Origin: Methylohalobius crimeensis 10Ki
Lineage (GTDB): Bacteria; Pseudomonadota; Gammaproteobacteria; Methylococcales; Methylothermaceae
Assembly: GCF_000421465.1 (NCBI RefSeq)
Contig: NZ_ATXB01000001.1
Coordinates: forward strand, 2,139,001-2,203,000
Direction of reading: 5' to 3'
DNA: 64,000 nucleotides
The number at the start of each line of letters is the position of its first letter. The first letter of the stretch is position 1. Below are positions 715-23,604 of the stretch, piece by piece. The translations under genes and the position numbers were made by a program. Below the pieces are notes generated by a model, which was not told the origin of the DNA, searched no databases, and worked only from the letters and a program-made list of their open reading frames with translations.

Positions 715-1934
<1,220 letters not shown>

Positions 1935-8547: not shown

Positions 8548-9207
8548 ATGAACATTGATCTATCCAGGCTTCCGGAAACGCTCGATGCCCTGCATTTGAT
8601 CCTGGGGGTTTCCGTAGTCGTTTTATTGTTTTTGCTGGTCCTGGTGTTGACCTTGGCGGTCATCGTGTTGCTGCGCCGCAGCGCCGCCCCCCGGACCGAA
8701 ATCACCGAAAAGGTAGTAGAAAAGCCCGTGGTGGAGGAAAAACCCGCGCCCACGCCTCCCCCAGCGGCAAAACCCGAGGTGGAGGAAAAACCCGCTCCGC
8801 CCCCCAAACCGATCGTTTTGCGGGAACCCACGCCGGACGCCGCGCTCCAGCTTTTGGGACTGCTTCAATCCGAAGCGCGCCTGATCGATTTCCTGGAAGA
8901 AGATATCGGCGCCTATTCCGACGCCGACGTGGGCGCCGCGGCTCGGATCGTTCACGAAGGTTGCCGCAAGGTGCTTGACGAGCATTTCGAAATTTCACCG
9001 GTTCGAACCGAAGAAGAAGGCAGCCGGATCAAGGTGGCCAAAGGCTTCGACTCGGCCGAAACCCGCCTCACCGGCAATATCGTCGGCGAACCGCCTTTCC
9101 AAGGCGTGCTGATCCACCGCGGCTGGCGCGCCACCCAAGTCAAGCTTCCCCAACTGTCGGAGGGGCACAAGGCGGACATTCTGGCCCCCGCGGAGGTGGA
9201 GCTATGA
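8548..9207 (+). CDS. DUF2760 membrane-anchored protein, Hsp70 partner
   Basis: This 219-residue protein has one N-terminal transmembrane helix (about residues 18-42). A Pro/Glu/Lys-rich linker (about 50-90) with a repeated VEEKPAP element follows. The C-terminal globular domain has DUF2760 hallmarks (LLGLLQSEARLIDFLEEDI, GCRKVL, PFQGVLIHRGWRA). The family is uncharacterised but is found beside unusual Hsp70 genes, as here: its stop overlaps the start of the next gene (ATGA). I infer a membrane anchor or adaptor for the two Hsp70s. A ribosome-binding site, GAGGAA, precedes the ATG. Confidence 0.85.
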   Translation: MNIDLSRLPETLDALHLILGVSVVVLLFLLVLVLTLAVIVLLRRSAAPRTEITEKVVEKPVVEEKPAPTPPPAAKPEVEEKPAPPPKPIVLREPTPDAALQLLGLLQSEARLIDFLEEDIGAYSDADVGAAARIVHEGCRKVLDEHFEISPVRTEEEGSRIKVAKGFDSAETRLTGNIVGEPPFQGVLIHRGWRATQVKLPQLSEGHKADILAPAEVEL

Positions 9208-11252
9208 GTGAGGAAAAACGCTACTCGGTCGGCATCGATCTGGGCACCACCAATAGCGTGGTGTCGTGGGTGGACCTGAGCCAGTGCGATCGGGAAAAAG
9301 CGCCGGTGGAAGTGGCGGGTATTCCCCAATTGATCGCCCCGGGCGAAGTGGAGGAGCGCGGGCAGCTGCCTTCCTTCGAATATCTGCCCCATCCCGACGA
9401 ACTGGGCGCCGAGGACCGGGTTCTCCCGTGGCGCGAGAACGTCGATCATATCGTCGGCGTGCTGGCTCGGGAAATGGGCAGCAAAACCCCCATCCGGCTG
9501 GTGGCGAGCGCCAAAAGCTGGCTTTGCCATGCCGGCGTCAACCCCAAGGATGCTTTCCTGCCCATCGAAGCGCCGGAGGAAGTCCCCCGGACCTCTCCCT
9601 ACCAAGCTTCCCTGGAATACCTCCAGCATCTGCGCGACGCCTGGAACCACCAACACCCGGACAGCCCGCTGGAGCAGCAGGACTTGGTCATCACCGTCCC
9701 GGCTTCCTTCGATCCGGCGGCGCGCGAGCTGACCGCCGAAGCCGCCCGGGAAGCGGGATTGTCACAGGCGATTCTGCTGGAAGAACCCCAGGCGGCTCTG
9801 TACAGCTGGATTCAGCGCACCGAGGGGCAGTGGCGCGAACAGGTCCAGGTGGGCGACATCATCCTGGTGGTGGACGTGGGCGGCGGTACCACCGACCTGT
9901 CCCTGATCGCCGTCACCGAGGAAGACGGCAACCTCCAGCTCAACCGCGTCGCGGTGGGGGATCACATTCTTCTCGGCGGCGACAACATGGACCTGGCTTT
10001 GGCCTACGTGGTCAAAATGAAGCTGGAGCAGGAAGGCAAGCCCCTCGATCCCTGGCAGGTACAGGCGCTGACCCACAGTTGCCGCGGCGCCAAGGAACAG
10101 CTTTTGGCGGATCCGGATCTGGCCCAGGCCCCGGTGGTCGTCCCCAGCCGCGGCTCCAAGCTGATCGGCGGCACGCTGCGCGCCGAGTTGACCCGGGAAG
10201 AAGTGAACCGAACCCTCATCGATGGCTTTTTCCCACAGGTGGAGGTTACCGAGAAACCCATTTCCCGCCCGCGCACCGGTCTGACCACCCTGGGCCTTCC
10301 CTACGCCCAGGACGCCCGCATCACCGCCCACTTGGCCCATTTCCTCAGCCGCCAGGTGAGTGCCGTGGACGAGTTGGAAGGCGTGGATCTACCCGAAAAC
10401 GCACGTTTTATCCATCCTTCGGCGGTGCTTCTCAACGGCGGGGTGTTCAAGCCCCAACTGTTGTCCGACCGACTACTGGCGGTGGTCAATCAGTGGCTGA
10501 CCGCTGATGACGCCCCGGCCGCCCGCCTCCTGGAAGGCGCCGATCTGGATCTGGCGGTGGCCCGCGGCGGCTCCTATTACGGCTATGTTCGCATGGGCGG
10601 GGGCGTCCGCATTCGCGGCGGAACGGCGGCGGCCTACTACATCGGCGTGGAGAGCGCCATGCCCGCGGTCCCCGGCTTCCCGCCTCCGATTCGCCTATTG
10701 TGCGTCGCGCCCTTCGGCATGGAAGAAGGCACCGAAGCGCCCCTGCCGCCCCACGAGTTCGGCGTGGTGGTGGGCGAGCCGGTGCGGTTCCGCTTTTTCA
10801 ATTCCACCATCCGCCGCGAAGACCCGGTAGGTGCCCTGCTCGATCACTGGACCGACGAGGAAGTCCAGGAACTGGCGGAAATCGAAGTCACTCTGTCCCC
10901 GGAAAATCACCAGCCCGGCGAAGTGGTTCCGGTTCAACTGGCGGCCCTCTACACCGAAGTGGGCACCTTGCGCTTGGAAGCGGTGGCCAAAGACACCGGC
11001 GAACGCTGGAAAGTGGAATTCGAGGTCCGCGGACAAGAATCGACGCAATCTCAAGCCGAGGAGTCGTCCTCGACGCGCGAAACATCCGAAAGCCTTGAAG
11101 AAACTTCGGAATCCGAATCGCCGGAGCCTACTTCCGAATCCACTCCGGAAACCGAAGCCGAGGCGACCGAGTCCGCAGAGGAACCCGGCGCGCCGGAAGG
11201 TGAAAGTTCGGAGCAGGAACAGAAACCGAGTTTCTGGCCATTCAAGAAGTAA
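9204..11252 (+). CDS. Hsp70-family protein (DnaK-like ATPase) with acidic tail
   Basis: This 682-residue protein has a clear Hsp70 ATPase domain: phosphate-1 loop GIDLGTTNSVVSW, phosphate-2 loop VVDVGGGTTDLSLI, and adenosine-loop region VLLNGGVFKP. The substrate-binding part diverges from DnaK. Instead of a normal helical lid there is a Ser/Glu/Pro-rich acidic stretch of about 70 residues ending in a short basic/aromatic tail, FWPFKK. It overlaps the DUF2760 gene by 4 bp and is followed 9 bp later by a second Hsp70. No DnaJ or GrpE is present here, so this is a specialised chaperone-like ATPase rather than the housekeeping DnaK. Its client is unknown. Confidence 0.88.
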   Translation: MSEEKRYSVGIDLGTTNSVVSWVDLSQCDREKAPVEVAGIPQLIAPGEVEERGQLPSFEYLPHPDELGAEDRVLPWRENVDHIVGVLAREMGSKTPIRLVASAKSWLCHAGVNPKDAFLPIEAPEEVPRTSPYQASLEYLQHLRDAWNHQHPDSPLEQQDLVITVPASFDPAARELTAEAAREAGLSQAILLEEPQAALYSWIQRTEGQWREQVQVGDIILVVDVGGGTTDLSLIAVTEEDGNLQLNRVAVGDHILLGGDNMDLALAYVVKMKLEQEGKPLDPWQVQALTHSCRGAKEQLLADPDLAQAPVVVPSRGSKLIGGTLRAELTREEVNRTLIDGFFPQVEVTEKPISRPRTGLTTLGLPYAQDARITAHLAHFLSRQVSAVDELEGVDLPENARFIHPSAVLLNGGVFKPQLLSDRLLAVVNQWLTADDAPAARLLEGADLDLAVARGGSYYGYVRMGGGVRIRGGTAAAYYIGVESAMPAVPGFPPPIRLLCVAPFGMEEGTEAPLPPHEFGVVVGEPVRFRFFNSTIRREDPVGALLDHWTDEEVQELAEIEVTLSPENHQPGEVVPVQLAALYTEVGTLRLEAVAKDTGERWKVEFEVRGQESTQSQAEESSSTRETSESLEETSESESPEPTSESTPETEAEATESAEEPGAPEGESSEQEQKPSFWPFKK

Positions 11253-11261
11253 TCTTCTCGG

Positions 11262-14033
11262 GTGAGTCAATCAACACGCTATCTGGTCGGCATCGATCTG
11301 GGCACCACCCATACGGTGGTGGCCTACGCCGACCTGAGCCAAGGAAGAGAAGCATCGATCGAGCGGTTTGCCGTCCCCCAACTGATCGCTCCCGGAGAGA
11401 TCGCCGACCGCTCTTTGTTGCCTTCGGTACGCTACCATCCGACCGAGGGCGAGCTGGCCCCGGCATCCCTTAACCTCCCCTGGATGCCGCCAGATATCGG
11501 CGATCCGGTCCCCGGCCCCGTGATCGGTGAATTGGCCCGGCAATTGGGCGCCAAGTCGCAAGGCCGTTTGGTCACCAGCGCCAAGAGCTGGCTTTGCAAC
11601 CCCAACGTGGACCGCACCGCCGACATCTTGCCGTGGGGCTCGCCCCAAGAGGTAAGCCGGGTTTCCCCACTGATCGCCTGCGCCAGTTATCTCGCCCATG
11701 TGCGCGGCGCGTGGAATGTGCGATTTCCAGAGCACCCCCTGGAGCGACAGGAGGTGGTGGTCACCATTCCGGCCTCCTTCGACGAGGCGGCCCGGGCCTT
11801 GACCGTGGAAGCGACAAAAATCGCCGGGATTTCCCGTCCGCGCCTGCTGGAGGAACCCCAGGCGGTCTGTTACGACTGGCTCTACCGCCATCGCGACGAC
11901 TTGAGCCCCCTCGCCGATTCCCGTCTGCTGTTGGTGGCGGATTTGGGCGGAGGCACCACCGATTTAACTTTGATCCGGATCCAAGGAGGGGCGAACGGCC
12001 ATTCGCCCCGACTGACCCGCGTCGGGGTCGGGGATCACCTGCTTTTGGGCGGGGATAACATCGATCTCATGCTGGCCCATTTGGTCGAAGAACGCCTGCT
12101 TGATCAGGGGCACAAACTTTCCACCGGCGAATTTTCTCAATTGATCGAACAATGCCGCATCGCCAAGGAGCGCCTGCTGGCCGACCCGAGCCCGGACCAA
12201 GCCACGGTAACCGTGCTGGGCAGCGGCGCCAAACTCATCGGCGGGGCCCGCTCGGTCACCCTCGACCGGGACGAAGTCCATGAAGTGGTTCTGGAAGGCT
12301 TCTTCTGCCCCACCCCCCTGGCCAAACATCCGCAAGGCAAGCGCAGCGGATTGGTGGAGTTCGGTCTCCCCTATGAAGCCGATCCGGCCGTCACCCGCCA
12401 CATCGCCGCATTTCTCAAATCTCACGCGCAAGTGGCCCAAGAAGCCCTGGGAGACCCGGAAAGCGCGCCGGTACCAGATACGGTCTTGCTCAACGGCGGT
12501 GTTTTCTTGAGCCCGGTAATCACCGATCGGCTGTTGCAAGTGTTGGAAAGTTGGCGTCCTCGGCCCGTCACGACGCTGGACAATCCCCATCCGGAATTTG
12601 CCGTGGCATCGGGCGCGGTAGCTTATGCCATGGCCCGCCGTGGCTTTCAAACCAAAATCGGAGGCGGGTCGGCACGCAGTTATTTTCTGGTGGTGGAGAG
12701 CGAAGCAGGAGAATCGCAAGGCATGTGCCTCCTCCCCCGAGGCACCGAGGAAGAACAGGAAATCCTCTTGAAGGACCGCGTCTTCGCCCTGCGGCTGGGA
12801 CAACCGGTTCGCTTTCACCTGGTTTCCTCCACCGAAGACACCCCATATACTCCTGGCGACAAGGTGCCTTTGGACAATGAAAGGTTTACCCTGCTGCCTC
12901 CTTTGGCGATGGCCCTGTCGGCGGAGGACAAGGGTGAAGTCCAAGTGCGACTGGCCGCTAGACTGACCGAGATCGGCACCTTGGAATTGGAGTGCGTGGC
13001 CCTGGACGACCCCGGTCGTCGCTGGCGACTGGCTTTCGAGCTTCGCCGTCCGAGCCGCCAGGCACAGGTTCAGGATGTTTCCCATCCTCATTTGGAGGAA
13101 GCTCGGAACTTGATTCGGGCCGTATTCGGGAAAAAATCCAAAGACGTCTCCCCCAAGCTGGTCAAAACCCTGCGCGGAGAATTGGAAAAGCGCCTCGGCC
13201 CGCGCCACCGTTGGGATGTTCCACTGCTAAGGGCGCTCGCCGATACCTTGCTGGAAGGGATCAAATTCCGCCGCCGCAGCCCGGAACACGAGCGCACCTG
13301 GTTCAGCCTGACCGGTTTCTGCCTGCGGCCGGGGTTCGGCTATCCCCTGGATGAATGGCGCATCGAACAAGTCTGGCCCATTTATCGGCAAGGACTGCAA
13401 TTCGTCAATGTGATCCAAAATTGGGCCGAGTGGTGGACCTTTTGGCGCCGAATCGCCGGCGGTTTGGATCCGGCGAATCAGAATGCCATTTTCCATGACC
13501 TGACCGGTTACCTGGACCCCGCCAAGCTCCGTCAAAAGGGCACGCAGAAAAACTTGAAGCTGCGCAGCAACGAAAACATGATCCGCTTGGCGGCGGTCCT
13601 GGAACATCTGCCGGTGGATGAGAAAATTCAGCTGGGGGAATGGTTTTTGACCCGCCTCCAAAACCCCAAGGAGCCGGAAGAAATCCTCGCTTGGGCGCTG
13701 GGCCGGTTGGGCAGCCGAGACCCCTTTTACGGCAGCACCCACCATACGGTGCCCGCCGGCGTGGCCGAACATTGGCTGCAAACCCTGTTGACCCTGGATT
13801 TCAAGCAAAAACCGGCGCTGGGATTCGCCGCCGCGCTCCTGGCGCGAAGGAGCGGCGATCGGGCGCGGGATATTCACGCCGACATGCGGGTGGCGGTGGT
13901 TCAAACGCTCCAACAGGCCAAGGCGCCGGTTTCCTGGATCAGGATGGTCCAGGAAGTGGTAAGGCTTTCCGAGGAAGACGAAAAACGCCTGTTCGGAGAA
14001 GCCTTGCCGCCGGGACTGAAGCTGATTGCCTAA
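11262..14033 (+). CDS. Hsp70-family protein with C-terminal DUF3731-like domain
   Basis: This 923-residue protein begins at GTG, 9 bp after the previous Hsp70. The ATPase loops are present (GIDLGTTHTVVAY, VADLGGGTTDLTLI, VLLNGGVFLSP). After residue ~600 the fold departs from Hsp70 into a large helical extension of over 300 residues (RNLIRAVFGKKSKDVSPKLV, FSLTGFCLRPGFGYPLDEWR, RIAGGLDPANQNAIF) matching what I recall as DUF3731. DUF2760 plus a short Hsp70 plus a long Hsp70 is a recurring set, which suggests that they act as one complex. Its stop overlaps that of the convergent ABC exporter gene. Confidence 0.88.
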   Translation: MSQSTRYLVGIDLGTTHTVVAYADLSQGREASIERFAVPQLIAPGEIADRSLLPSVRYHPTEGELAPASLNLPWMPPDIGDPVPGPVIGELARQLGAKSQGRLVTSAKSWLCNPNVDRTADILPWGSPQEVSRVSPLIACASYLAHVRGAWNVRFPEHPLERQEVVVTIPASFDEAARALTVEATKIAGISRPRLLEEPQAVCYDWLYRHRDDLSPLADSRLLLVADLGGGTTDLTLIRIQGGANGHSPRLTRVGVGDHLLLGGDNIDLMLAHLVEERLLDQGHKLSTGEFSQLIEQCRIAKERLLADPSPDQATVTVLGSGAKLIGGARSVTLDRDEVHEVVLEGFFCPTPLAKHPQGKRSGLVEFGLPYEADPAVTRHIAAFLKSHAQVAQEALGDPESAPVPDTVLLNGGVFLSPVITDRLLQVLESWRPRPVTTLDNPHPEFAVASGAVAYAMARRGFQTKIGGGSARSYFLVVESEAGESQGMCLLPRGTEEEQEILLKDRVFALRLGQPVRFHLVSSTEDTPYTPGDKVPLDNERFTLLPPLAMALSAEDKGEVQVRLAARLTEIGTLELECVALDDPGRRWRLAFELRRPSRQAQVQDVSHPHLEEARNLIRAVFGKKSKDVSPKLVKTLRGELEKRLGPRHRWDVPLLRALADTLLEGIKFRRRSPEHERTWFSLTGFCLRPGFGYPLDEWRIEQVWPIYRQGLQFVNVIQNWAEWWTFWRRIAGGLDPANQNAIFHDLTGYLDPAKLRQKGTQKNLKLRSNENMIRLAAVLEHLPVDEKIQLGEWFLTRLQNPKEPEEILAWALGRLGSRDPFYGSTHHTVPAGVAEHWLQTLLTLDFKQKPALGFAAALLARRSGDRARDIHADMRVAVVQTLQQAKAPVSWIRMVQEVVRLSEEDEKRLFGEALPPGLKLIA

Positions 14034-15769
14034 GACAAAGCCGCAATTACCGCTTGTGGTTCCGTCACCGGGCGGGCAACCCCATTCCCCAGCTGATAGA
14101 CTTCGTCGGCGATCTCCACCATCGTGGGTTGATGCGACACCGCCAGAATCGTCACTTTTTCCTTGAGTCCCGCCAAGGTGCGACAAATGGCGCGCTGGTT
14201 GTCCGGGTCCAAGGCGCTGGTGGCCTCGTCCAGAATCAGCAGGCTGGGGCGGTGGGCCAGGGCCCGGGCAATCATGATTCGCTGCCTTTGGCCGCCGGAA
14301 AGACGCGCGCCCCGCTCCCCCACGATCGTATGCATGCCCTCGGGAAAATCGGCGACGAACTCCCAGGCGCCGGCGGCCTGCAGGGCCCATCGGACGTGCC
14401 GTTCGGTCAAGTCGGGGTCGCCGAAAGTGATATTGTAGAAAATGCTATCGTGAAGCAGGAGATTGTCCTGGGGCACATAACCGATCATCCGCCGCCACGC
14501 GCGCAAATCGACCTCGCCGATTTCCACACCGTCCAGCAGAATCCGGCCCTGCCGAGGATGTAAAAGGCCGATGATCAGATCGATCACGGTGCTTTTGCCG
14601 GCCCCGGAAAAACCGATCAAGGCGGTCAATTTACCGGCCGGAATATGCAGAGAAAGATCCTCGAATACCGGCTGGGTTCCGTAGGCAAACGCGACGTGCT
14701 CCAATTCGATCGCTTGGGTCAAGGTCGGAACCAGATTACCGCCCACCGGCTCCACATGGCGCCGGGCTTCATCGATGGTTTGGCGAAGGGACCAATAAGC
14801 GCTTTCGCAAGTGGCCATATTCTGCAACATCCGCTGCACCTTGCCCATCCCGCTCATGACCCGGCTCAGCAGCAACAACAAAACCATGACTTCCGTCGCC
14901 GGCATGTGCCAATGCACCAAACCCAGGTAGAATCCCGCCGCCACCAAAATGATGAAGGCCGGCCCTTGCACCGCTTTCAGTGCCTCCTTGCTGAGCACTT
15001 CCCGCTCCAAGGCTTTGTTCAAGCGATTGGTCTCCGCCGCGATCACCCGATCGGCCAAATCCTCCCGCCCCATCGCCTTGAGCGGCTTGACCGACTGCAA
15101 GCAATCGGTCAATTGACCGAGCAATGCTTTCAACACGCGGGTTTGACGTTTGCCGGCCTTGCGCGCCATGCGCACAAAATAATGCAGCACCGAGATCACC
15201 ACCGCCGCGCCGGCGATATAAGCCAAAGTCGCCCGCCAGGAGATGCTCGCCGCCACTCCGATATAAGCCAACATTTGAATAATCGCCGCCAACATGGAAG
15301 TGCCGAAAAAATAAGCCTTGGAGGCTCGATCCGGCTCGCTGGACATGGCGTTGGCAAGCGTCCCCACCGGTTGGCGGAGATAGAAGGTCCACTGGGCGGT
15401 CAGTAGCGCTTTGAGCAGGCTCAGACGTAAATCGGTAGCCACCCGGGCAATGGTATAACCGACGTATTTATTGGCGAATAGAACGAAGCCGCTCCGGAGC
15501 ACCGTACCCGTAAGCAGCACCACGATCAATACCCCCAAGGTGGGCGTCATCCCCAACCAACGCAGGGCCTGCAGCAAATAGCCGCTCCCGCCCTGCTTGC
15601 CGGTCAAAACGATTTCTCCGCCCTGCCCCGATTGTTCCACCGCCGAGGTCAATACCGGCAGCAGGGCGGTCATGCTGGCCCCTTCGACCAAGCCGGCCAG
15701 AATCAACGCCACCAGAACGACGGCACTTTGCCAGGGATAAGCTTGTATGAACTGGATCAAAAGGCGCAT
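14030..15769 (-). CDS. ABC exporter, fused permease-ATPase (MsbA/lipid-flippase type)
   Basis: This is a protein of about 579 residues. Several transmembrane helices lie in the first ~300 residues. The ATPase domain follows: Walker A GFSGAGKST, signature LSGGQRQR, Walker B LLILDEATSALD, H-loop AVSHQ. The start is set at the ATG at 15769 (MRLLIQF), which gives the usual exporter N-terminus; the frame upstream is charged and overlaps the next gene. It lies 16 bp downstream of the serine-palmitoyltransferase-like gene on the same strand, so it is probably the last gene of that operon. I infer export or flipping of the lipid made by the cluster. ABC half-exporters also move peptides and other lipids, so the substrate is not proven. 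Confidence 0.88.
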   Translation of the reverse strand: MRLLIQFIQAYPWQSAVVLVALILAGLVEGASMTALLPVLTSAVEQSGQGGEIVLTGKQGGSGYLLQALRWLGMTPTLGVLIVVLLTGTVLRSGFVLFANKYVGYTIARVATDLRLSLLKALLTAQWTFYLRQPVGTLANAMSSEPDRASKAYFFGTSMLAAIIQMLAYIGVAASISWRATLAYIAGAAVVISVLHYFVRMARKAGKRQTRVLKALLGQLTDCLQSVKPLKAMGREDLADRVIAAETNRLNKALEREVLSKEALKAVQGPAFIILVAAGFYLGLVHWHMPATEVMVLLLLLSRVMSGMGKVQRMLQNMATCESAYWSLRQTIDEARRHVEPVGGNLVPTLTQAIELEHVAFAYGTQPVFEDLSLHIPAGKLTALIGFSGAGKSTVIDLIIGLLHPRQGRILLDGVEIGEVDLRAWRRMIGYVPQDNLLLHDSIFYNITFGDPDLTERHVRWALQAAGAWEFVADFPEGMHTIVGERGARLSGGQRQRIMIARALAHRPSLLILDEATSALDPDNQRAICRTLAGLKEKVTILAVSHQPTMVEIADEVYQLGNGVARPVTEPQAVIAALS

Positions 15770-15785
15770 GCCGGCTGCTTTAGCT

Positions 15786-16982
15786 TCACGCGGCCAGTCC
15801 GTGTGCGGTAAAAACTTCCCTGAAAATCGCAAGCAAACGATCGATCTGCTCTTCCTCGTGGGCGGCACTCATACTGCAACGGAGGAGACAGTGCTCATCG
15901 GGGGTTGCGGGCGGCATCACCAAATTGACATAAGCGCCGCGTTCGAGCAACTCATGCCAAACAAGCAGCGCTTGCTCGCGGGATTCTCCCAGCATGATCG
16001 GAATGACCGGACTCAGTTGCGGCCCCAAGCGGCATCCCAACGACTTGAGTCCTTCCCGGAAACGACGGGCATTGCGCCAAAGCCGGTCGCGGAGATCCGA
16101 GCCTTCCCGCAGCAGCCGCAAGGCCACCCGGGTGGAGGCGATCAAGGAAGGCGAGGAAGAAGCGGTGAAAATATAAGGCCGCGCCGCATAGCGGAGAATG
16201 TCCAGTTCCGGGTGAGGACTGACGCAATACCCGCCGATCGCCCCCAGGCTCTTGCTGAACGTTCCGACAATGAAATCCGCTCCGTCGAGCACGCCTTCGG
16301 ATTCCACCAAACCGCGTCCCTGCGCCCCCAGAACCCCCAGGGAATGGGCTTCGTCCACCATCAGGTAGGCACCGTATTTCCGTTTGAGTTCGACGATCTC
16401 TTTCAGCGGCGCCATATCGCCGAGCATGCTGTAGATCCCTTCCACCACGATCAAGGTTCGGGAGGCCCGTTCCTTAAGGCGACGCAGGCGCTTGTCCAAG
16501 TCGTCCGCGTCGTTGTGGCGGAAACGGAGCACTTCGGCCTGGCTCATCCGGCAGCCGTCATAGATGCTGGCGTGGCAATCGGCATCCAGCAGGATCACGT
16601 CATCCGGACCGGGCAGGGTCGAAAGCAAGGCCAGATTCGCCAAGTAACCGGTGGAAAACACCACGCCATGGGGAAGGCCGTAGAATTCGGCAAATTCCCG
16701 CTCCAAGGCCTGGTGATCGGCGTAATTGCCGTTGGCCATGCGCGAGCCGGTGGTCCCGCATCCTTCTTCGCGCACCGCTTTTTCGGCCGCGGCGATGCAG
16801 TCCGGATGAAAAGTCAGGCCCAGATAATTGTTGGTCCCCGCCAAAATCGCTCGGCGACCGTTGACGATCGCTTCGGTGGGCGACAGGATTTTTTCTACGG
16901 TCACGTTGAACGGATCGGCGCCCAAAGCCTTGAGCCGATCTCTCGCTTCCTGCAGCGGTTTGAACTTATCCAGCAAGGTCAT
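15786..16982 (-). CDS. spt: Serine-palmitoyltransferase-like alpha-oxoamine synthase
   Basis: This 398-residue PLP enzyme belongs to the alpha-oxoamine synthase family (SPT, BioF, KBL, ALAS). The PLP-lysine motif reads GTFSKSLGAIGG. The TFSKS form is typical of serine palmitoyltransferase, whereas BioF and KBL have T(F/L)GKA-type motifs. Other landmarks are NNYLGLTFHP, GCGTTGSR and the PLP-binding DEAHSLGVLG. Expected reaction: L-serine plus an acyl thioester gives 3-ketosphinganine, the first step of sphingolipid synthesis. The upstream ACP gene overlaps it by 4 bp, which fits an ACP-delivered acyl donor. BioF or KBL is the alternative, but the TFSKS motif and neighbours favour SPT. Confidence 0.8.
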   Translation of the reverse strand: MTLLDKFKPLQEARDRLKALGADPFNVTVEKILSPTEAIVNGRRAILAGTNNYLGLTFHPDCIAAAEKAVREEGCGTTGSRMANGNYADHQALEREFAEFYGLPHGVVFSTGYLANLALLSTLPGPDDVILLDADCHASIYDGCRMSQAEVLRFRHNDADDLDKRLRRLKERASRTLIVVEGIYSMLGDMAPLKEIVELKRKYGAYLMVDEAHSLGVLGAQGRGLVESEGVLDGADFIVGTFSKSLGAIGGYCVSPHPELDILRYAARPYIFTASSSPSLIASTRVALRLLREGSDLRDRLWRNARRFREGLKSLGCRLGPQLSPVIPIMLGESREQALLVWHELLERGAYVNLVMPPATPDEHCLLRCSMSAAHEEEQIDRLLAIFREVFTAHGLAA

Positions 16983-17239
16983 TGGTCTTGGAGCAGCTGT
17001 TGAATCTTGTCGGCCAAATCGCCGACGGTGCGCACATCGGGAAGCACATTCAAGGGAATGGACACATCGAACCGGTCCTCGATTTCCTGCAGCAAATTCA
17101 TCACTTTCATGGAGTCGAGTCCCAGGTTACCCACCAGTTCGGTATGTTCGTCCACCTCATCGGCTCCGGGGGCCAGAGCTCGAATGGTGGCGATCAATTC
17201 AGCCAAAATATCTTGATAACTCATCATTTCATTTATCAA
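16979..17239 (-). CDS. Acyl carrier protein dedicated to the ceramide locus
   Basis: This 86-residue ACP carries the phosphopantetheine-attachment motif GLDSMKV (Ser at about residue 43). The fold is typical and acidic (LAELIATIRALAPGADEVDEHTEL, IEDRFDVSIPLNVL). Two further ATGs lie 4 and 5 codons in (MMSYQDIL), and either could be the true start. It overlaps the SPT-like gene by 4 bp. It probably carries the fatty acyl chain loaded by the fatty acyl-AMP ligase upstream and hands it to the SPT-like enzyme. It differs from a housekeeping AcpP in sequence and context. Confidence 0.85.
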   Translation of the reverse strand: MINEMMSYQDILAELIATIRALAPGADEVDEHTELVGNLGLDSMKVMNLLQEIEDRFDVSIPLNVLPDVRTVGDLADKIQQLLQDQ

Positions 17240-17273
17240 AATTGAAGGGGATTCATTACTATTCCGGCACGCC

Positions 17274-18248
17274 TTAAATCTGACCGGCCAAGGTCAGACG
17301 CAAGCCGGTCGCAAATTGAATTTCCGGGTGCCAATCCAGCACCCGGCAGATGGCGCTATTGTCGCACACCCAATCCGGATGGCGCAGCTCGTTCACCTTC
17401 GCCGGGCTCAACATGGGGGGACGGCCCGACAGGCGAGCGCCGCCAGCCGCCAAACGAGCCAGCATCCGAAGCAGCCATTCCGGAACTGGCACACGCAAGG
17501 CGGCACCGCCGCGAAACGCTTCGGCCACGGCGATCACTTCTTCCCAGTCGTAACCTTGCTCTTTGCCATCGTGCAATTCGAAAATCCCTCGCTCACCTCC
17601 CCTGATCGCTTGCGCCACCGCCCGCGCCAGATCATCCACGAAGAGCAGGGAAAAGCGCGCCGTGGAAGCCCCCAAAATAGGCGCCACGCCCTTCGTCATC
17701 GCCACAAGCAGCGGCAACAGTTCGCGATCGCCGGGTCCGTATACCGCCGGCGGTCTCAATGCCAGCCACGGTAAGGCATCTCCAAATTGGGCGACGGCTT
17801 TTTCAGCTCGGTGCTTGCTTAAAGCATAGGGAGATAAATCCGGCTCACGGGCGGCCAGGGAAGAGATCAGGACAAAACGCGGCGGCTTGACCTGGGCCGC
17901 CGCCATACGCGCCAGGGTTTCGGTTCCGGCAACGTTGACCGCATCGAAATCGGCTTGGGTGAGGCCTCGCACCAGGCCGGCGCAATGGACGACACCTTCG
18001 GCGCCTTCCAGGAGATGTTCCAAGGCGCTCGAATCCGCCATCGAACCGGTACACAGCTCGACCGATTCTGAGTCGCGAGGAGAACTGACATCGGCGGGAA
18101 GGCGGGATTCCGACCCGGGCCTGACCAATAGACGCACCCGCCAGCCGCAATGAAGCAAGTGGCGGGCGATGCGGCCGCCAATGAAACCGGTGGCGCCGGT
18201 GAGGGCGATTAAAGAATTGCGCGGCTCAGCGGACGACAAACCGACCAA
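17274..18248 (-). CDS. NAD(P)-dependent epimerase/dehydratase-type reductase, putative ceramide reductase (CerR-like)
   Basis: This 324-residue extended short-chain dehydrogenase has the Rossmann motif TGATGFIG near the N-terminus and the catalytic YxxxK as YALSK (about residue 150). The start is TTG, 3 bp after the stop of the acyl-AMP ligase; no better start was seen. In Caulobacter ceramide synthesis a protein of this type reduces the 3-keto group of the acylated sphingoid intermediate and sits between the acyl-ACP synthetase and ACP genes, as it does here. On sequence alone it could be a sugar epimerase or dihydroflavonol-reductase-like enzyme; the operon position drives the call. Confidence 0.72.
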   Translation of the reverse strand: MVGLSSAEPRNSLIALTGATGFIGGRIARHLLHCGWRVRLLVRPGSESRLPADVSSPRDSESVELCTGSMADSSALEHLLEGAEGVVHCAGLVRGLTQADFDAVNVAGTETLARMAAAQVKPPRFVLISSLAAREPDLSPYALSKHRAEKAVAQFGDALPWLALRPPAVYGPGDRELLPLLVAMTKGVAPILGASTARFSLLFVDDLARAVAQAIRGGERGIFELHDGKEQGYDWEEVIAVAEAFRGGAALRVPVPEWLLRMLARLAAGGARLSGRPPMLSPAKVNELRHPDWVCDNSAICRVLDWHPEIQFATGLRLTLAGQI

Positions 18249-18251
18249 GCG

Positions 18252-20003
18252 TCAAACCGCGGCCCGGCGTCCCTTGGGTTGGGGCTGGGCGAAGTCGTGG
18301 GTTGCAATATAATTCTGCCGAGCCTTGGAGCGGGACAGCTTGCCGGACGAGGTTCGCGGCAAGGTGTGCAAGGGCACCAATTCCACGATGGTGTCGACGC
18401 CGATCTCCGACTGCACCTGCGAGCGGATTCGAGCGACCAAATCGGCCCGCTTGGCCTCGTCATTCTCCCGGCACTGGACCACGATCACGGTCAAATCGCC
18501 GCCGTCGGGACCGGGCACACCGAAAGCCAAGGCGTCTCCCGGACGCACTTCCGGTTGCCGTTGAGCCAAATACTCCAGATCCTGAGGCCAGATATTGCGA
18601 CCGTTGACGATGATCAAATCCTTGGCGCGCCCGGTGAGATACAAGCGATCCCCGACCCGGTAACCGAGATCCCCGGTATTGAGCCAACCATCCTCCGACA
18701 ACACTTCCTGGGTACTGTCGGGATCTTGGAAATAACCCGACATGACGCTGGGCCCGCGCAGATACACGCTTCCCACCTGACGATCGGAGACTTCCTTGCC
18801 GTCGGCATCGAGGATTTTAAGCTCAAATCCCGAGAGCAAATGACCGCAATCGACAAATTCATTGGTCCGCCCGGAATCGGAAGCGGCCGGTTCGGCACGG
18901 CCTTCGGAGGCCAAGCATTCGGCATCCACCCGATCCACTTTCAACCCTTGTCCCAGAGGGGCGAAAGTGACCGCCAAGGAACATTCCGCCATTCCGTAAC
19001 AGGGCAGGAAAGCCGTTTCCTTAAACCCCGCCGGCGCCAATGCTTGGGCGAATTCACGCAGGGAACCGGTGCAAATCATCTCCGCCCCGACTCCGGCCAC
19101 GCGCCAAGCGCTCAAATCGTACTGGGCCGCCTCTCCCGGGCGCAGGCGGCGCTGACACAGTTCGTACCCGAACGGAGGGCCGAAAGAAATGGTCGCCTTA
19201 TTCTTGGAAAGCAAAGCCAACCATTGGCGCGGGCGCATGGCGAACTCCCGGGTTCCCAGGTAGTCCACGGAAACCTGGGAAGCGACCGGGGTCAACATCA
19301 ACCCCACCAAACCCATGTCGTGATAGAAGGGCAACCAGGAAACGGCACGATCTCCCGGGCGCAGATCGACCCCGTACTGGGCGATGCCCGCCAGATTGTC
19401 CATCACCGCCGCTTGAGTGATCATCACCCCGCGCGGGAATCGGGTGCTGCCCGAGGTATATTGCAAATAGGCCAACTCATTCAGTTTGAGCGGGACAAGC
19501 TCCGTCTCCGCCGAGGGCAGTGCGTGAAAATCCTCGGGCGATCCGAAATAGTCAATATCCAGATCCTCGGCGGCTTCCTCCAGGAAGGAGACGAAGTTTT
19601 CCGGGGCCATGGCGATGTGGGGACGACAGCTCTGCAAGAGCGCGCGCAATTGCCGTACATACGCCTGATGACTTCCCAGGCTCAAAGGAATGGGCAAAGG
19701 CACCGGCACCAAGCCGGCATACTGACAGGCAAAGAAAAATCGGATAAAGTCAGGAGTGGTTTCAGCAACCAAGGCCACTCGGGACTCGCGGGGCAGATTC
19801 AGTCCGGCCAACCGCTTTGCCAAATCAAGCGCCTGCAGGCGCAAATCGGCATACGGCAGCACTTCCAACAATTCCCCGCGGCCGTTGTAAAAGTTACAAC
19901 CCGTGTGGCCCAGCGCGGCATAGTCTAGCGCTTCCGATAGCGAGCCGAAATCGGCCCGCCTGAGCGGGAGCGTGTTTTCAGTTGGCGTAGCTTGAGCACC
20001 CAA
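18252..20003 (-). CDS. Fatty acyl-AMP ligase / acyl-ACP synthetase
   Basis: This 583-residue ANL-superfamily enzyme has the P-loop YTSGSTRFPRGVMIT, the FAAL-typical WLPFYHDMGLVG, YGMAECSLAV for adenine binding, and the hinge TGDLGYRVGDRLYLTGRAKDLIIVNGRNIWP. Expected reaction: fatty acid plus ATP gives acyl-AMP, with transfer to the phosphopantetheine of an ACP, here most likely the ACP encoded two genes downstream. The start is TTG after GGGGAGAGG. It is the first gene of the minus-strand ceramide operon, so its upstream region (20004-20333) should hold the promoter. It resembles FAALs of polyketide/lipid pathways; the absence of PKS or NRPS genes nearby and the SPT gene point to lipid synthesis. 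Confidence 0.87.
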   Translation of the reverse strand: MGAQATPTENTLPLRRADFGSLSEALDYAALGHTGCNFYNGRGELLEVLPYADLRLQALDLAKRLAGLNLPRESRVALVAETTPDFIRFFFACQYAGLVPVPLPIPLSLGSHQAYVRQLRALLQSCRPHIAMAPENFVSFLEEAAEDLDIDYFGSPEDFHALPSAETELVPLKLNELAYLQYTSGSTRFPRGVMITQAAVMDNLAGIAQYGVDLRPGDRAVSWLPFYHDMGLVGLMLTPVASQVSVDYLGTREFAMRPRQWLALLSKNKATISFGPPFGYELCQRRLRPGEAAQYDLSAWRVAGVGAEMICTGSLREFAQALAPAGFKETAFLPCYGMAECSLAVTFAPLGQGLKVDRVDAECLASEGRAEPAASDSGRTNEFVDCGHLLSGFELKILDADGKEVSDRQVGSVYLRGPSVMSGYFQDPDSTQEVLSEDGWLNTGDLGYRVGDRLYLTGRAKDLIIVNGRNIWPQDLEYLAQRQPEVRPGDALAFGVPGPDGGDLTVIVVQCRENDEAKRADLVARIRSQVQSEIGVDTIVELVPLHTLPRTSSGKLSRSKARQNYIATHDFAQPQPKGRRAAV

Positions 20004-20333
20004 GAGCCTCTCCCCTTAAAAATCCAGCAATCCGGCAGGCATCAAAACAAACAACGGACAAAACATATGCACCCTTTCGCGATCCTTGGCGGCTCCTGGC
20101 AATGGTAGCCCAGGATGTTGTTTTCCGTTGTTTTAGTTGCTTTCGCGCGAAAGCAAGGTAACCTATGAGCAAAAAGCATCATAGCATTTCCGCCAATCCG
20201 GAGACAAGCACCAGATTTGGCGCCGCCAGGTACGGCTTCACGTCCCTGACTCTCAGGGATTAAGCATAGCGTGTTGCCAATTAACAATCAACTGTATCTT
20301 TACGGCAACGATACAACAGTTCATTTCCAAGCA
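20004..20333. promoter_or_regulatory. Divergent control region of the ceramide locus
   Basis: About 330 bp between the divergent acyl-AMP ligase and N-acyltransferase genes. It contains a perfect 20-bp palindrome (20137-20156), a direct repeat GTTGTTTT (20117-20124 and 20127-20134), and an inverted pair AAACAACGGA (20049-20058) / TCCGTTGTTT (20124-20133). I could not fix -35/-10 elements with confidence. The density of symmetrical sites suggests regulated expression of both arms. Confidence 0.5.
20137..20156. promoter_or_regulatory. Perfect 20-bp palindrome, candidate operator
   Basis: TTGCTTTCGCGCGAAAGCAA equals its own reverse complement. Its length and central position between two divergent lipid genes fit a dimeric repressor site (TetR- or GntR-like size). 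No regulator gene is in the cluster, so the binding protein is unknown. As RNA it would form a stem with almost no loop, so a DNA site is more likely than a terminator. Confidence 0.5.
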
Positions 20334-21467
20334 ATGACCGCGAAAATTTCCATCCAGCCCGTCACCCATACCCGGCATCTGACTGAATTTATCCGTCTCC
20401 CTTACCGGCTATACGGTAATGATCCCCACTGGATTCCGCCTTTACGACTGGAACGGCGTCAGCTTCTCTCCCGCAAAAATCCCTATTTCTCCCACGCGCA
20501 CTGGCAGGGCTGGCTCGCCTGGCGCGGCAGTCGTCCGGTGGGCCGCATCAGCGCTCAGATCGACCGACTCTATCTAGAGCAACATCATCGGAAAGTAGGC
20601 TTTTTCGGGATGCTCGAGGCGGTCGATGACGAAGAAGTCTTCGCCCGCCTGTTGGCCCAAGCGGAAAGCTGGCTGAAAAAAGAAGGCATGGAATCGATCC
20701 AAGGCCCCTTCAATCTTTCCATCAATCACGAATGCGGCCTCTTGGTCAATGGCTTTCAGCAGCCTCCCATGATCATGATGCCTTACAATCCACCTTATTA
20801 TGCCGACCAACTGGAAAAACACGACTATCGCAAAGCTCAGGACCTTTTGGCTTACCTGCTATCGGCCCGAACCGCTCCTCCCGAGGGCGCAAGCCAACTC
20901 GCCGCCAAGGCCGCCGAAACCATCCGCGTCAGGCCGCTTGACCGGCCTCGCCTGACCGAGGAATTCGAATTGCTTCGCTCGCTGTTCAACGACGCCTGGC
21001 GGGATAATTGGGGGTTTATTCCCTTCACCCGGGCAGAATTTCAGGAAATGGGCAAAATGTTGAGCCACATCGTCCCCGACGATTTCGTCCAGATTGCCGA
21101 AATGAACGGCGAAGCGGTGGGCATGATCGCCGCCATGCCCGACCTGAATCAGTTGCTCACCGGACTCGACGGGCGCTTGCTGCCATTCAACTGGCTCAAG
21201 CTCCTGTGGCGCTGGAAGACGGCCTACCCCGACGCCGGGCGGGTGATGCTGATGGGAATCCCGCGAAAATGGCAGCAAAACCTTCTGGGGGCGGCCATCG
21301 CCTATCGGCTGATCGAGGCCTTGCGGCAAGCAGGACTTGCCCAAGGCATGCGGCAAATGGAGTTATCCTGGATTCTGGAAAACAACACGAGGATTCGAGG
21401 AATCATAGAGAACCTCGGCGCCGCTTGTTACAAGCGCTATCGGATTTACGCGAAAACCCTGCCATGA
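20334..21467 (+). CDS. GNAT-like N-acyltransferase, putative bacterial ceramide synthase (bCerS-like)
   Basis: This is a protein of about 377 residues starting at ATG 20334 (MTAKISIQPV); a GTG 21 codons upstream adds an unlikely N-terminus. Landmarks are FIRLPYRLYGNDPHWIPPL near the start, IQGPFNLSINHECGLLV with PPMIMMPYNPPYY in the middle, and LSWILENNTRIRGIIENLGAACYKRYRIYAK at the end. This family is sometimes misnamed dATP pyrophosphohydrolase. It includes, as I recall, the bacterial ceramide synthase of Caulobacter, which N-acylates 3-ketosphinganine. Position beside the SPT operon supports that role here. The next gene overlaps by 4 bp. Confidence 0.7.
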   Translation: MTAKISIQPVTHTRHLTEFIRLPYRLYGNDPHWIPPLRLERRQLLSRKNPYFSHAHWQGWLAWRGSRPVGRISAQIDRLYLEQHHRKVGFFGMLEAVDDEEVFARLLAQAESWLKKEGMESIQGPFNLSINHECGLLVNGFQQPPMIMMPYNPPYYADQLEKHDYRKAQDLLAYLLSARTAPPEGASQLAAKAAETIRVRPLDRPRLTEEFELLRSLFNDAWRDNWGFIPFTRAEFQEMGKMLSHIVPDDFVQIAEMNGEAVGMIAAMPDLNQLLTGLDGRLLPFNWLKLLWRWKTAYPDAGRVMLMGIPRKWQQNLLGAAIAYRLIEALRQAGLAQGMRQMELSWILENNTRIRGIIENLGAACYKRYRIYAKTLP

Positions 21468-22255
21468 CTACGCCCCGCCTATTCGATGCCGTCCTGTTGG
21501 CCGCGGACCGGGAAGGAGAAAATCCGGTGGCCCGCGCTGCGGGCGCGCCGTGCAAAACGCTGACCCCGATCGGCGGCCAATCCCTGCTGTCCCGCGTTCT
21601 GGATGCCTTGGAACACTGTCCCACGGTGCAGCGCTGCATCCTTTGCGGGCCCAGCGAACCGATTATGTCCGAACCCTCCATTTCCTCTGTACTCGAGCTT
21701 CCTTGGCTGGAATGGATTGCCCCCCAACCCTCCCCCAGCCTTAGCGCATTGGCCGGCTTGGCGCACATTCCGGAAAACCGACCGGCGCTTCTAACCACTG
21801 CCGACCTCGCTTTTCCCGACCCCCGGGTCTTCGAGGATTTTTGCCGTGGGGCCGCAACCCTGGGCGGGGATGTGGCGGTAGGGCTGATTCCCTATCAAAC
21901 CGTCGCCGCGCGCTATCCCGGGGTCCGGCGCACCAGCCTGAAATTCACCGACGGACCTTTCTGCACCTGCAACCTGTTCGCCTTTCTGACCCCGAAGGGT
22001 CGTACCATGGTCGAATTCTGGCGGAATCTGGAACGGGAACGCAAACACCCCTGGCGCCTCGTTCGGGCGCTCGATATGATCGCCCTCATCCGTTATTTGC
22101 TGGGCCGTCTCAGCACCCAGGCAATATCGCAGCGGATAGAGAAAAAAATGGGGATCCAAGTCAATTTCGTGGTTCTCCCTTATCCCGATGCTGCCATCGA
22201 CGTGGATACCGAAGACGACTTACACTTGGTTCGGGCTGCGGTCGGAGACGATTAA
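21464..22255 (+). CDS. MobA-like nucleotidyltransferase, possible lipid head-group enzyme
   Basis: This protein of 263 residues starts at the ATG that overlaps the stop of the N-acyltransferase gene (ATGA), which indicates translational coupling. It looks like an NTP-transferase of the GT-A/MobA fold. AVLLAADREGENPVARAAGAPCKTLTPIGG replaces the usual glycine-rich nucleotide loop and keeps the Lys, LLTTADLAFPD supplies the metal-binding Asp, and DVDTEDDLHLV ends the domain. Molybdenum-cofactor or sugar activation is possible on fold alone. Tight coupling to a ceramide-synthase-like gene suggests CTP-dependent activation of a polar head group. Its stop overlaps that of the OmpA-like gene on the other strand. 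Confidence 0.65.
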   Translation: MTTPRLFDAVLLAADREGENPVARAAGAPCKTLTPIGGQSLLSRVLDALEHCPTVQRCILCGPSEPIMSEPSISSVLELPWLEWIAPQPSPSLSALAGLAHIPENRPALLTTADLAFPDPRVFEDFCRGAATLGGDVAVGLIPYQTVAARYPGVRRTSLKFTDGPFCTCNLFAFLTPKGRTMVEFWRNLERERKHPWRLVRALDMIALIRYLLGRLSTQAISQRIEKKMGIQVNFVVLPYPDAAIDVDTEDDLHLVRAAVGDD

Positions 22256-23604
22256 CGGGACGCGCTCAACACGGGTATCGGCACGAATTCGATTTCCACC
22301 CGCCGGTTTTTGGCCCGTCCTGCCCGACTCCGATTGCTCGCCACCGGTTTTTCTCCCCCCCATACTCGCATTTCCAAACGCTCCGACGAAATCCCTTGGC
22401 GAATCAGAAAATCCCGGACTTTTTCGGCCCATTGGCGCGCCAAATTCAAGTTGACCTGTTCGCTGCGCCAGCGGGCATCGTCGCTGTGGCCGTTGATGAC
22501 CAGTACCCCGGAAAAATGTTCGAGACAATATTGCGCCAACAAATTCAAACGGTTTCTTTGAAGGGGCGACCAGGATTTTTGGTCGGAATCGTAATGATAT
22601 AGACGCAGCGATTCCGGGCCGAACAATTTCAATGGAATTTTTGGCCCCGCCGCGGCTTGCGCCTCTGATGCGGTCACCACCTGGGAAGGTTTCAGCCCTT
22701 CCTGGCGCAAAAACTGGCGCACCGCCCGGAAACGCTTTTCAAACCACAGCGCTCCTTGCTTGTCTTCCAAGCTCGACAGAACATCCGACACCACAACTTG
22801 CCCTTGGCTTTGGCTCTTCAAGAGCGTCGCGATCTGAGACAAGACTGTCCGGAGCTCCCGAGATATCAATGCCTGGAAAGGAGAAAAGGAAAAATGGAGA
22901 TTCCGAAAATCCCTGATTCCGAAAGACGGCAGCCGGCGGCGACAGGCCTGAAATCGATCGTAAACCTCCCACAGCCGTACCGCCGAGATGGAGACTCGGG
23001 CTTCCCAGCCGCCTTCATCCTCCCACGGGCGGCGATAATAAAACTCGGGAAAGGAACCGTTAAACAGCGCCGTCAGCATTCTCTCCGCGCGGATGCCCTC
23101 GACCCACAAACGCTGTCCCAGACGACCGCGCGATTCAATGCCGTCCACGGGCAGACGCCGACCGGGTGTTTCCCCGTGATGCCAAGGCGCCGGCTGTACC
23201 TGAACGCCGGCCTCGATCACCTGGGCTTCATTTTCCAACACGAGCTGCAAGCGTAGCGGCTGACCCGCCTCTTGGAGGAAATGAACCCGTCCCAAATGAG
23301 GAATCGCTTGTTCCAGACGACAAGATTGTTGATCCGTGTACACATCCCACCGCCCTTCCGCCAAAGGGACTTGATGGAAATCGGCCGTTGCCGCGGCGGC
23401 CCATAGATACAAGCCTAAGTGCCATTTGATGCTTCGCCATCCTTGGTTCGCACCCTTCCGGGCGCACTTCAGGCGCCCAAATCGGCTATCCTGCCGATTT
23501 GTGATGCTTCGCCATCGCCGGCTTTGCATCCTTCCGGCGACTTTCAGGCACCCAAGCCGACTGATCCGCCACTTGGTCTCCTTGGGAATGCGTTTTCGAG
23601 CCAT
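22252..23604 (-). CDS. OmpA-like envelope protein, start uncertain
   Basis: The C-terminal ~100 residues form an OmpA-type peptidoglycan-binding domain (LVINGHSDDARWRSEQVNLNLARQWAEKV, RVWGGEKPVASNRSRAGRAKNRRVEIEF). The ~280 residues before it are unfamiliar. A short hydrophobic stretch, LGLYLWAAAATADF, lies about 70 residues from the farthest ATG (23604) and looks like a signal-peptide core, so translation may begin nearer 23420. The basic segment before it is encoded by a hairpin-rich 75-bp tandem repeat and may not be translated. A weak ribosome site (GGAG) precedes the 23604 ATG. The protein probably tethers the outer membrane to peptidoglycan. A role with the ceramide locus is not shown. 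Confidence 0.7.
   Translation of the reverse strand: MARKRIPKETKWRISRLGCLKVAGRMQSRRWRSITNRQDSRFGRLKCARKGANQGWRSIKWHLGLYLWAAAATADFHQVPLAEGRWDVYTDQQSCRLEQAIPHLGRVHFLQEAGQPLRLQLVLENEAQVIEAGVQVQPAPWHHGETPGRRLPVDGIESRGRLGQRLWVEGIRAERMLTALFNGSFPEFYYRRPWEDEGGWEARVSISAVRLWEVYDRFQACRRRLPSFGIRDFRNLHFSFSPFQALISRELRTVLSQIATLLKSQSQGQVVVSDVLSSLEDKQGALWFEKRFRAVRQFLRQEGLKPSQVVTASEAQAAAGPKIPLKLFGPESLRLYHYDSDQKSWSPLQRNRLNLLAQYCLEHFSGVLVINGHSDDARWRSEQVNLNLARQWAEKVRDFLIRQGISSERLEMRVWGGEKPVASNRSRAGRAKNRRVEIEFVPIPVLSASR
23428..23577. repeat. Two-copy 75-bp tandem repeat with hairpins
   Basis: Copies at 23428-23502 and 23503-23577 both begin GATGCTTCGCCATC and share CCTTCCGG and TTCAGGC blocks; similarity is strong over the first ~58 bp. 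Copy 1 contains stems ATCGGC/GCCGAT and GGGCGC/GCGCCC. The period is a multiple of three, so the OmpA-like frame stays open through it. It resembles a dispersed structured intergenic element rather than protein-coding sequence. Confidence 0.75.

Follow-up and report, generated by a model that had tools for sequence, protein, structure and literature searches.

The locus considered here occupies positions 14030-22255 of a 64,000-nucleotide stretch of the Methylohalobius crimeensis 10Ki genome (contig NZ_ATXB01000001.1, positions 2,139,001 to 2,203,000), hereafter the window, and very likely directs the synthesis of a ceramide backbone. According to open reading frame coordinates and Pfam and NCBIfam assignments, it comprises a five-gene run on the minus strand and a divergent pair on the plus strand. 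The run is transcribed in the order fatty acyl-AMP ligase (FAAL), CerR-like reductase, acyl carrier protein (ACP), serine palmitoyltransferase (SPT) and ABC exporter, with intergenic gaps of 3-34 nt or overlaps; the ACP and SPT genes overlap by 4 nt, and the ATG of the exporter lies 16 nt past the SPT stop. On the plus strand, the genes for a GNAT-type N-acyltransferase and a nucleotidyltransferase also overlap by 4 nt. The two divergent runs, headed by FAAL and GNAT, are separated by 330 nt (20004-20333), a region read directly from the sequence that presumably contains both promoters. An earlier sequence-only reading of this DNA had named an SPT with a TFSKS motif, an ACP, an epimerase-like reductase, a FAAL, a GNAT and a nucleotidyltransferase, and all of these lie where it had placed them. 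GNAT and nucleotidyltransferase, which it had described as divergently coupled, are however co-directional; the divergent pair is formed by GNAT and FAAL. Its span, starting at 14030, also took in the ABC exporter, which its text did not mention.

The SPT (15786-16982, minus strand) scores 623.3 bits against NF047599, the NCBI equivalog for proteobacterial SPT (cut-off 500). Among solved structures in the PDB, it matches the Sphingomonas SPTs at 430-453 bits, far above KBL (250 bits), BioF (199 bits), the cysteate acyltransferase Cfat (196 bits) or CqsA. A phylogeny against BioF, KBL and known SPTs, which the sequence-only reading had proposed as a check, places the protein with the Sphingomonas enzymes: in a tree of 51 rows with long outgroup branches, it falls within a proteobacterial clade of 45 SPTs, 2x8u, 2jg2 and E. 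coli spt among them (support 100/99), and BioF and KBL stand outside this clade (support 100/97). The pyridoxal phosphate (PLP) motif is TFSKS, in which the lysine is K244, and residues H137, D210, H213, K244 and R368 are invariant across 21 aligned sequences; we take their roles to be those of the corresponding residues in the S. paucimobilis enzyme numbering.

The partners of SPT in backbone synthesis are encoded around it. The first gene of the run (18252-20003, minus strand) specifies a FAAL, or acyl-AcpR synthetase of the AasR type, scoring 817 bits against NF006624 (fatty acyl-AMP ligase, cut-off 600). It is followed by a CerR-like ceramide reductase candidate of the extended short-chain dehydrogenase/reductase and epimerase family (17274-18248, minus strand; Pfam Epimerase, 87 bits), which is 38% identical to the corresponding locus protein of Caulobacter sp. 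HMWF025 and whose gene occupies the same operon position in most loci compared. The ACP (16979-17239, minus strand; PF00550, 47 bits) carries the phosphopantetheine site LGLDSMKVM and scores below every NCBIfam AcpP equivalog cut-off listed; its gene immediately precedes spt, and FAAL belongs to the same run, the arrangement by which AcpR and AasR are recognized. The GNAT (20334-21467, plus strand) shares 43% identity along its whole length with the GNAT from Caulobacteraceae locus L174, which has the C. crescentus architecture, and its AlphaFold model (pLDDT 92.4) matches tandem GNATs such as 7q3a with E-values down to 1e-14. On sequence and model, it is a candidate ceramide synthase of the bCerS/YghO type, predicted to N-acylate the long-chain base. 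The MobA/CofC-like nucleotidyltransferase (21464-22255, plus strand; PF12804, 51 bits) retains R16, K31, D114, D246 and D248 as invariant residues in alignment, and its model (pLDDT 91.8) adopts an NTP-transferase fold whose best matches include cytidylyltransferases. It adjoins GNAT in the position held in C. crescentus by CC_1153, which is required for CPG2 (PMC11324152).

Comparable arrangements are known in several bacteria. The yghO/FAAL/epimerase/acp/spt locus of E. coli B and many other isolates has a gene order identical to that of the window, with the GNAT gene (yghO) divergent from FAAL, and the encoded proteins are 54% (SPT), 49% (FAAL), 44% (YghO) and 39% (CerR) identical to those of the window; unlike the window, it continues into lptG-lptF-type genes and has no nucleotidyltransferase or ABC exporter annotated adjacent. 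The ceramide/CPG2 cluster of Caulobacter crescentus (CC_1168-CC_1152, with aasR-cerR-acpR-spt, cerS, CC_1153 and cpgD), five genes of which are required for ceramide, shares with the window the aasR-cerR-acpR-spt order and a bCerS gene beside that of a CofC/MobA-like nucleotidyltransferase (roles from PMC11324152). In contrast to that cluster, CpgB, CpgD and a second LptF/LptG are not seen in the window locus, where an ABC exporter follows SPT, and a CpgA/CpgD-like pair lies 1.94 Mb away. Two further loci, those of Pseudomonas asuensis and Pseudomonas sp. KK4, belong to the genus in which PMC11324152 describes the P. luteola cluster. As in the window, GNAT and nucleotidyltransferase face a FAAL-CerR-ACP-SPT run, after which comes the same ABC exporter (46-48% identity); unlike the locus described here, both also contain LptF2/G2 and CpgA-like genes, to which one adds a CpgD-like gene and the other a DAGK-type kinase.

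To describe the linkage of these genes, 104 SPT loci were scored, near-duplicates of the fetched loci having been removed and several coming from one genus; as the loci were chosen for similarity to the window SPT, the fractions are not population frequencies, and as many contigs end nearby, the counts are lower bounds. ACP accompanies SPT in all 104 loci, FAAL and CerR in 85, GNAT in 63, the nucleotidyltransferase in 52 (in 49 of them together with GNAT) and the exporter in 41. The FAAL-CerR-ACP-SPT run with GNAT and nucleotidyltransferase is conserved in same-genus genomes and across several phyla, and since both order and strands are kept, the run is not due to chance. Within the sampled order, all nine same-genus genomes have SPT, in one case divided between contigs, and a close homologue occurs in three further genomes. 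A Bacteroidota-type SPT-like protein was also observed in the same taxonomic order (family f2; L077:3371-4531 and L078:9992-11152), scoring about 505 bits against NF047600 (cut-off 640); in L078, a GNAT 38% identical to that of the window and a CerR-like gene lie near it, and this order may possess ceramide loci of two kinds.

The sequence-only reading had considered a gammaproteobacterial locus noteworthy, a view that does not survive comparison: E. coli carries the same order with an annotated spt, 21 of the 369 gammaproteobacterial genomes sampled (about 6%) exceed the SPT cut-off, and the five ceramide genes have been described in alpha-, beta- and gammaproteobacteria (PMC9386255, PMC11324152). 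Among complete E. coli genomes, 4056 of 5426 have a DNA match to the window SPT, the best listed being annotated spt and the rest possibly including paralogues, and Spt-like proteins occur in metagenome-assembled genomes (MAGs) of 38 phyla from the Black Sea (PMC11334938). The backbone gene set is already known in other bacteria and partly proven biochemically, E. coli included, and the system is ordinary. Phage records with SPT-like matches, 33-38% identical and partly annotated as KBL, were set aside. On plasmid pPNP1 of Pseudomonas sp. JS425 (L204), a FAAL-epimerase-ACP-SPT-ABC run has an IS5 transposase at the usual place of GNAT; its plasmid setting shows that horizontal transfer of sphingolipid genes is possible.

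The genome carrying the locus (3.5 Mb, 99% complete) holds two pMMO/AMO subunit A genes with identical scores and very probably belongs, therefore, to a methanotroph. The locus thus predicts sphingolipids in a methanotroph group, an addition to the lipid biomarkers of methanotrophs; in the open-access literature, with relevance judged by title, no report joining methanotrophs and sphingolipids was found.

In the pathway that we infer from these genes, the AasR-type FAAL would activate a free fatty acid with ATP and load it onto the dedicated AcpR, and SPT would condense the resulting acyl-AcpR with L-serine to 3-oxo-sphinganine. The linked exporter would then probably transfer ceramide, or a form of it derivatized with the headgroup, across the inner membrane from the inner leaflet to the outer, and the nucleotidyltransferase, with the CpgA/CpgD-like pair encoded elsewhere, would probably build a phosphoglycerate-type headgroup. 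Use of serine and acyl-AcpR by the window SPT is suggested by analogy with the enzymes of E. coli BL21, C. crescentus and S. wittichii, for which these substrates have been shown; the E. coli BL21 SPT makes 3-oxo-sphinganine from acyl-AcpR (PMC9386255).

That the locus makes a ceramide backbone by the AcpR-dependent proteobacterial route, as the sequence-only reading had proposed, appears very likely because SPT is recognized at equivalog level and falls in the SPT clade, the operon is conserved and has the same order in E. coli, and Caulobacter homology is supported through relatives, the GNAT having homologues in ceramide loci of Caulobacteraceae and of E. coli. Several points weigh against this conclusion. 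Homology to C. crescentus, CC_1154 included, was judged via Caulobacteraceae relatives; neither a DAGK-type CpgB, or ceramide kinase, nor a second LptF/LptG pair was found in the genome, where one pair exceeds the cut-off; and the R378-type loop arginine of the Sphingomonas SPT is Met356 in the window SPT. Arginine occupies this position in only 3 of the 97 SPT loci with a readable motif, and E. coli SPT has leucine; since nearly all proteobacterial SPTs scored, that of E. coli included, are non-arginine there, Met356 does not exclude SPT activity. The difference from the Sphingomonas enzyme nevertheless lends something to the alternative that an alpha-oxoamine synthase here condenses alanine, glycine or cysteate with acyl-AcpR, giving 1-deoxyceramides, lipids of the sulfonolipid type or other aminoketone lipids while the accessory genes stay the same, as do the substrate diversity of this enzyme family and the homology to Cfat. 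This is improbable in view of the far better match of the window protein to SPTs than to Cfat, KBL, BioF and CqsA, its score above the SPT equivalog cut-off, and the use of serine by the E. coli enzyme, which is likewise without the loop arginine (PMC9386255). The PLP fold of the window protein and a score of 343 bits against TIGR00858 (bioF) are also what a BioF or KBL paralogue of biotin or threonine metabolism, lying beside lipid genes by chance, would display; such an identity is exceedingly improbable and was rejected, because the protein scores under the bioF and KBL cut-offs, the tree, long-branch artefacts aside, excludes both families, the genome encodes a separate BioF elsewhere, above the BioF cut-off, and linkage of SPT to AcpR, FAAL and GNAT is conserved.

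The question of export concerns the last gene of the run (14030-15769, minus strand; PF00664 and PF00005), encoding an MsbA/ABCB-like half-size ABC exporter that is a candidate sphingolipid flippase. It belongs to the same superfamily as the lipid A flippase MsbA, itself a half-size ABC exporter, and matches MsbA structures at 168 bits (phmmer), but reaches only 249 bits against the MsbA equivalog TIGR02203 (cut-off 602) and scores under the NCBIfam exporter cut-offs listed. Its identity with the nearest full-length exporters of the genome is only 29-30%, and in a quick tree the sampled exporters form one clade apart from the nearest two (SH-aLRT 99). That it is the cell's MsbA was rejected on score and tree; of the other exporters of the genome, two fragments were scored against the MsbA model, and both fell under its cut-off. 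In every SPT locus that has one, the orthologue shares the strand of SPT and either follows SPT immediately or lies near LptF2-LptG2 and ACP; such loci were found in Gammaproteobacteria, Nitrosomonadaceae, Desulfobulbaceae, Geobacteraceae and contigs labelled Myxococcota and Calditrichota, labels that may be wrong for MAGs. According to PMC11087976, bacterial sphingolipids had no identified flippase or transporter, and CC_1166, proposed as a possible flippase, is reported absent from the beta- and gammaproteobacteria examined (PMC11324152); for these reasons, the exporter is a reasonable flippase candidate and a concrete candidate answer to how such lipids cross the membrane, a question stated in PMC11087976. 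That it handles ceramide or sphingolipid export is a prospect only a little short of even. It could quite conceivably be a general lipid or drug exporter, present in the operon through co-expression or descent: it is missing from most SPT loci scored (63 of 104), E. coli among them, several of the exporter-bearing loci are close relatives, and a substrate is not readable from sequence. Same-strand linkage across several phyla and the membership of all linked exporters in one clade, distinct from the other exporters of the genome, argue instead for a part in sphingolipid export.

The sequence-only reading had called the locus complete, which holds for the five backbone genes but not for those of the headgroup, which lie elsewhere or were not found. 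Adjacent genes for a cytidylyltransferase resembling CpgD (52%) and a CDP-alcohol phosphotransferase resembling CpgA (46%) were located at G000:C1:198893-201116, G000 being the genome that carries the locus; the names rest on family and synteny in relatives. The same pair occurs in four same-genus genomes, and another (G001) has no strong match to either protein. In G003 and G009, a 383-aa protein with no Pfam match neighbours the CpgD-like gene (L194:10270-11418; L180:4498-5646); one copy shares 39% identity with a protein encoded next to the Caulobacter sp. HMWF025 ceramide genes, a resemblance that supports a sphingolipid role. The Caulobacter-type CpgA-D set is incomplete, with CpgA-like and CpgD-like proteins but no DAGK-type CpgB found and CpgC not searched for; CpgB is a DAGK-family kinase (PMC10331486), and the activity of CpgD is known (PMC12275187). 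The number of LptFG pairs over the cut-off is one in the same-genus genomes searched and two in G044.

Construction of a phosphoglycerate-type headgroup by the nucleotidyltransferase and the distant pair is a tentative assignment, possible rather than probable. The occurrence of the CpgA/CpgD pair with no kinase points to a simpler way of making the headgroup, and phosphoglycerate may pass directly to ceramide. The broader proposal, that the exporter belongs to a dedicated spt-linked flippase family across phyla and that, in this genus, it serves a shortened pathway where the CpgA-like CDP-alcohol phosphotransferase puts phosphoglycerate from the CDP-glycerate of CpgD straight onto ceramide with no ceramide kinase involved, is unlikely as a whole. 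Within the system, it is the exporter linked to spt and the headgroup pair lacking a kinase that merit experiment.

Other features of the window lie around these genes. The Rfam search yielded a single match, an ALIL pseudoknot at 993-1109 (plus strand, 108 bits), which in insertion sequences of the IS3 type is the frameshift element. Positions 9204-14033 of the plus strand hold neighbouring genes for two Hsp70/DnaK-like proteins of 682 aa and 923 aa, the latter with DUF3731; the pair ends head-to-head with the exporter, and most genomes of the genus retain it next to the sphingolipid genes. At the other end of the locus, a protein with MotY_N and OmpA domains (22252-23604, minus strand) is a conserved neighbour within the genus.

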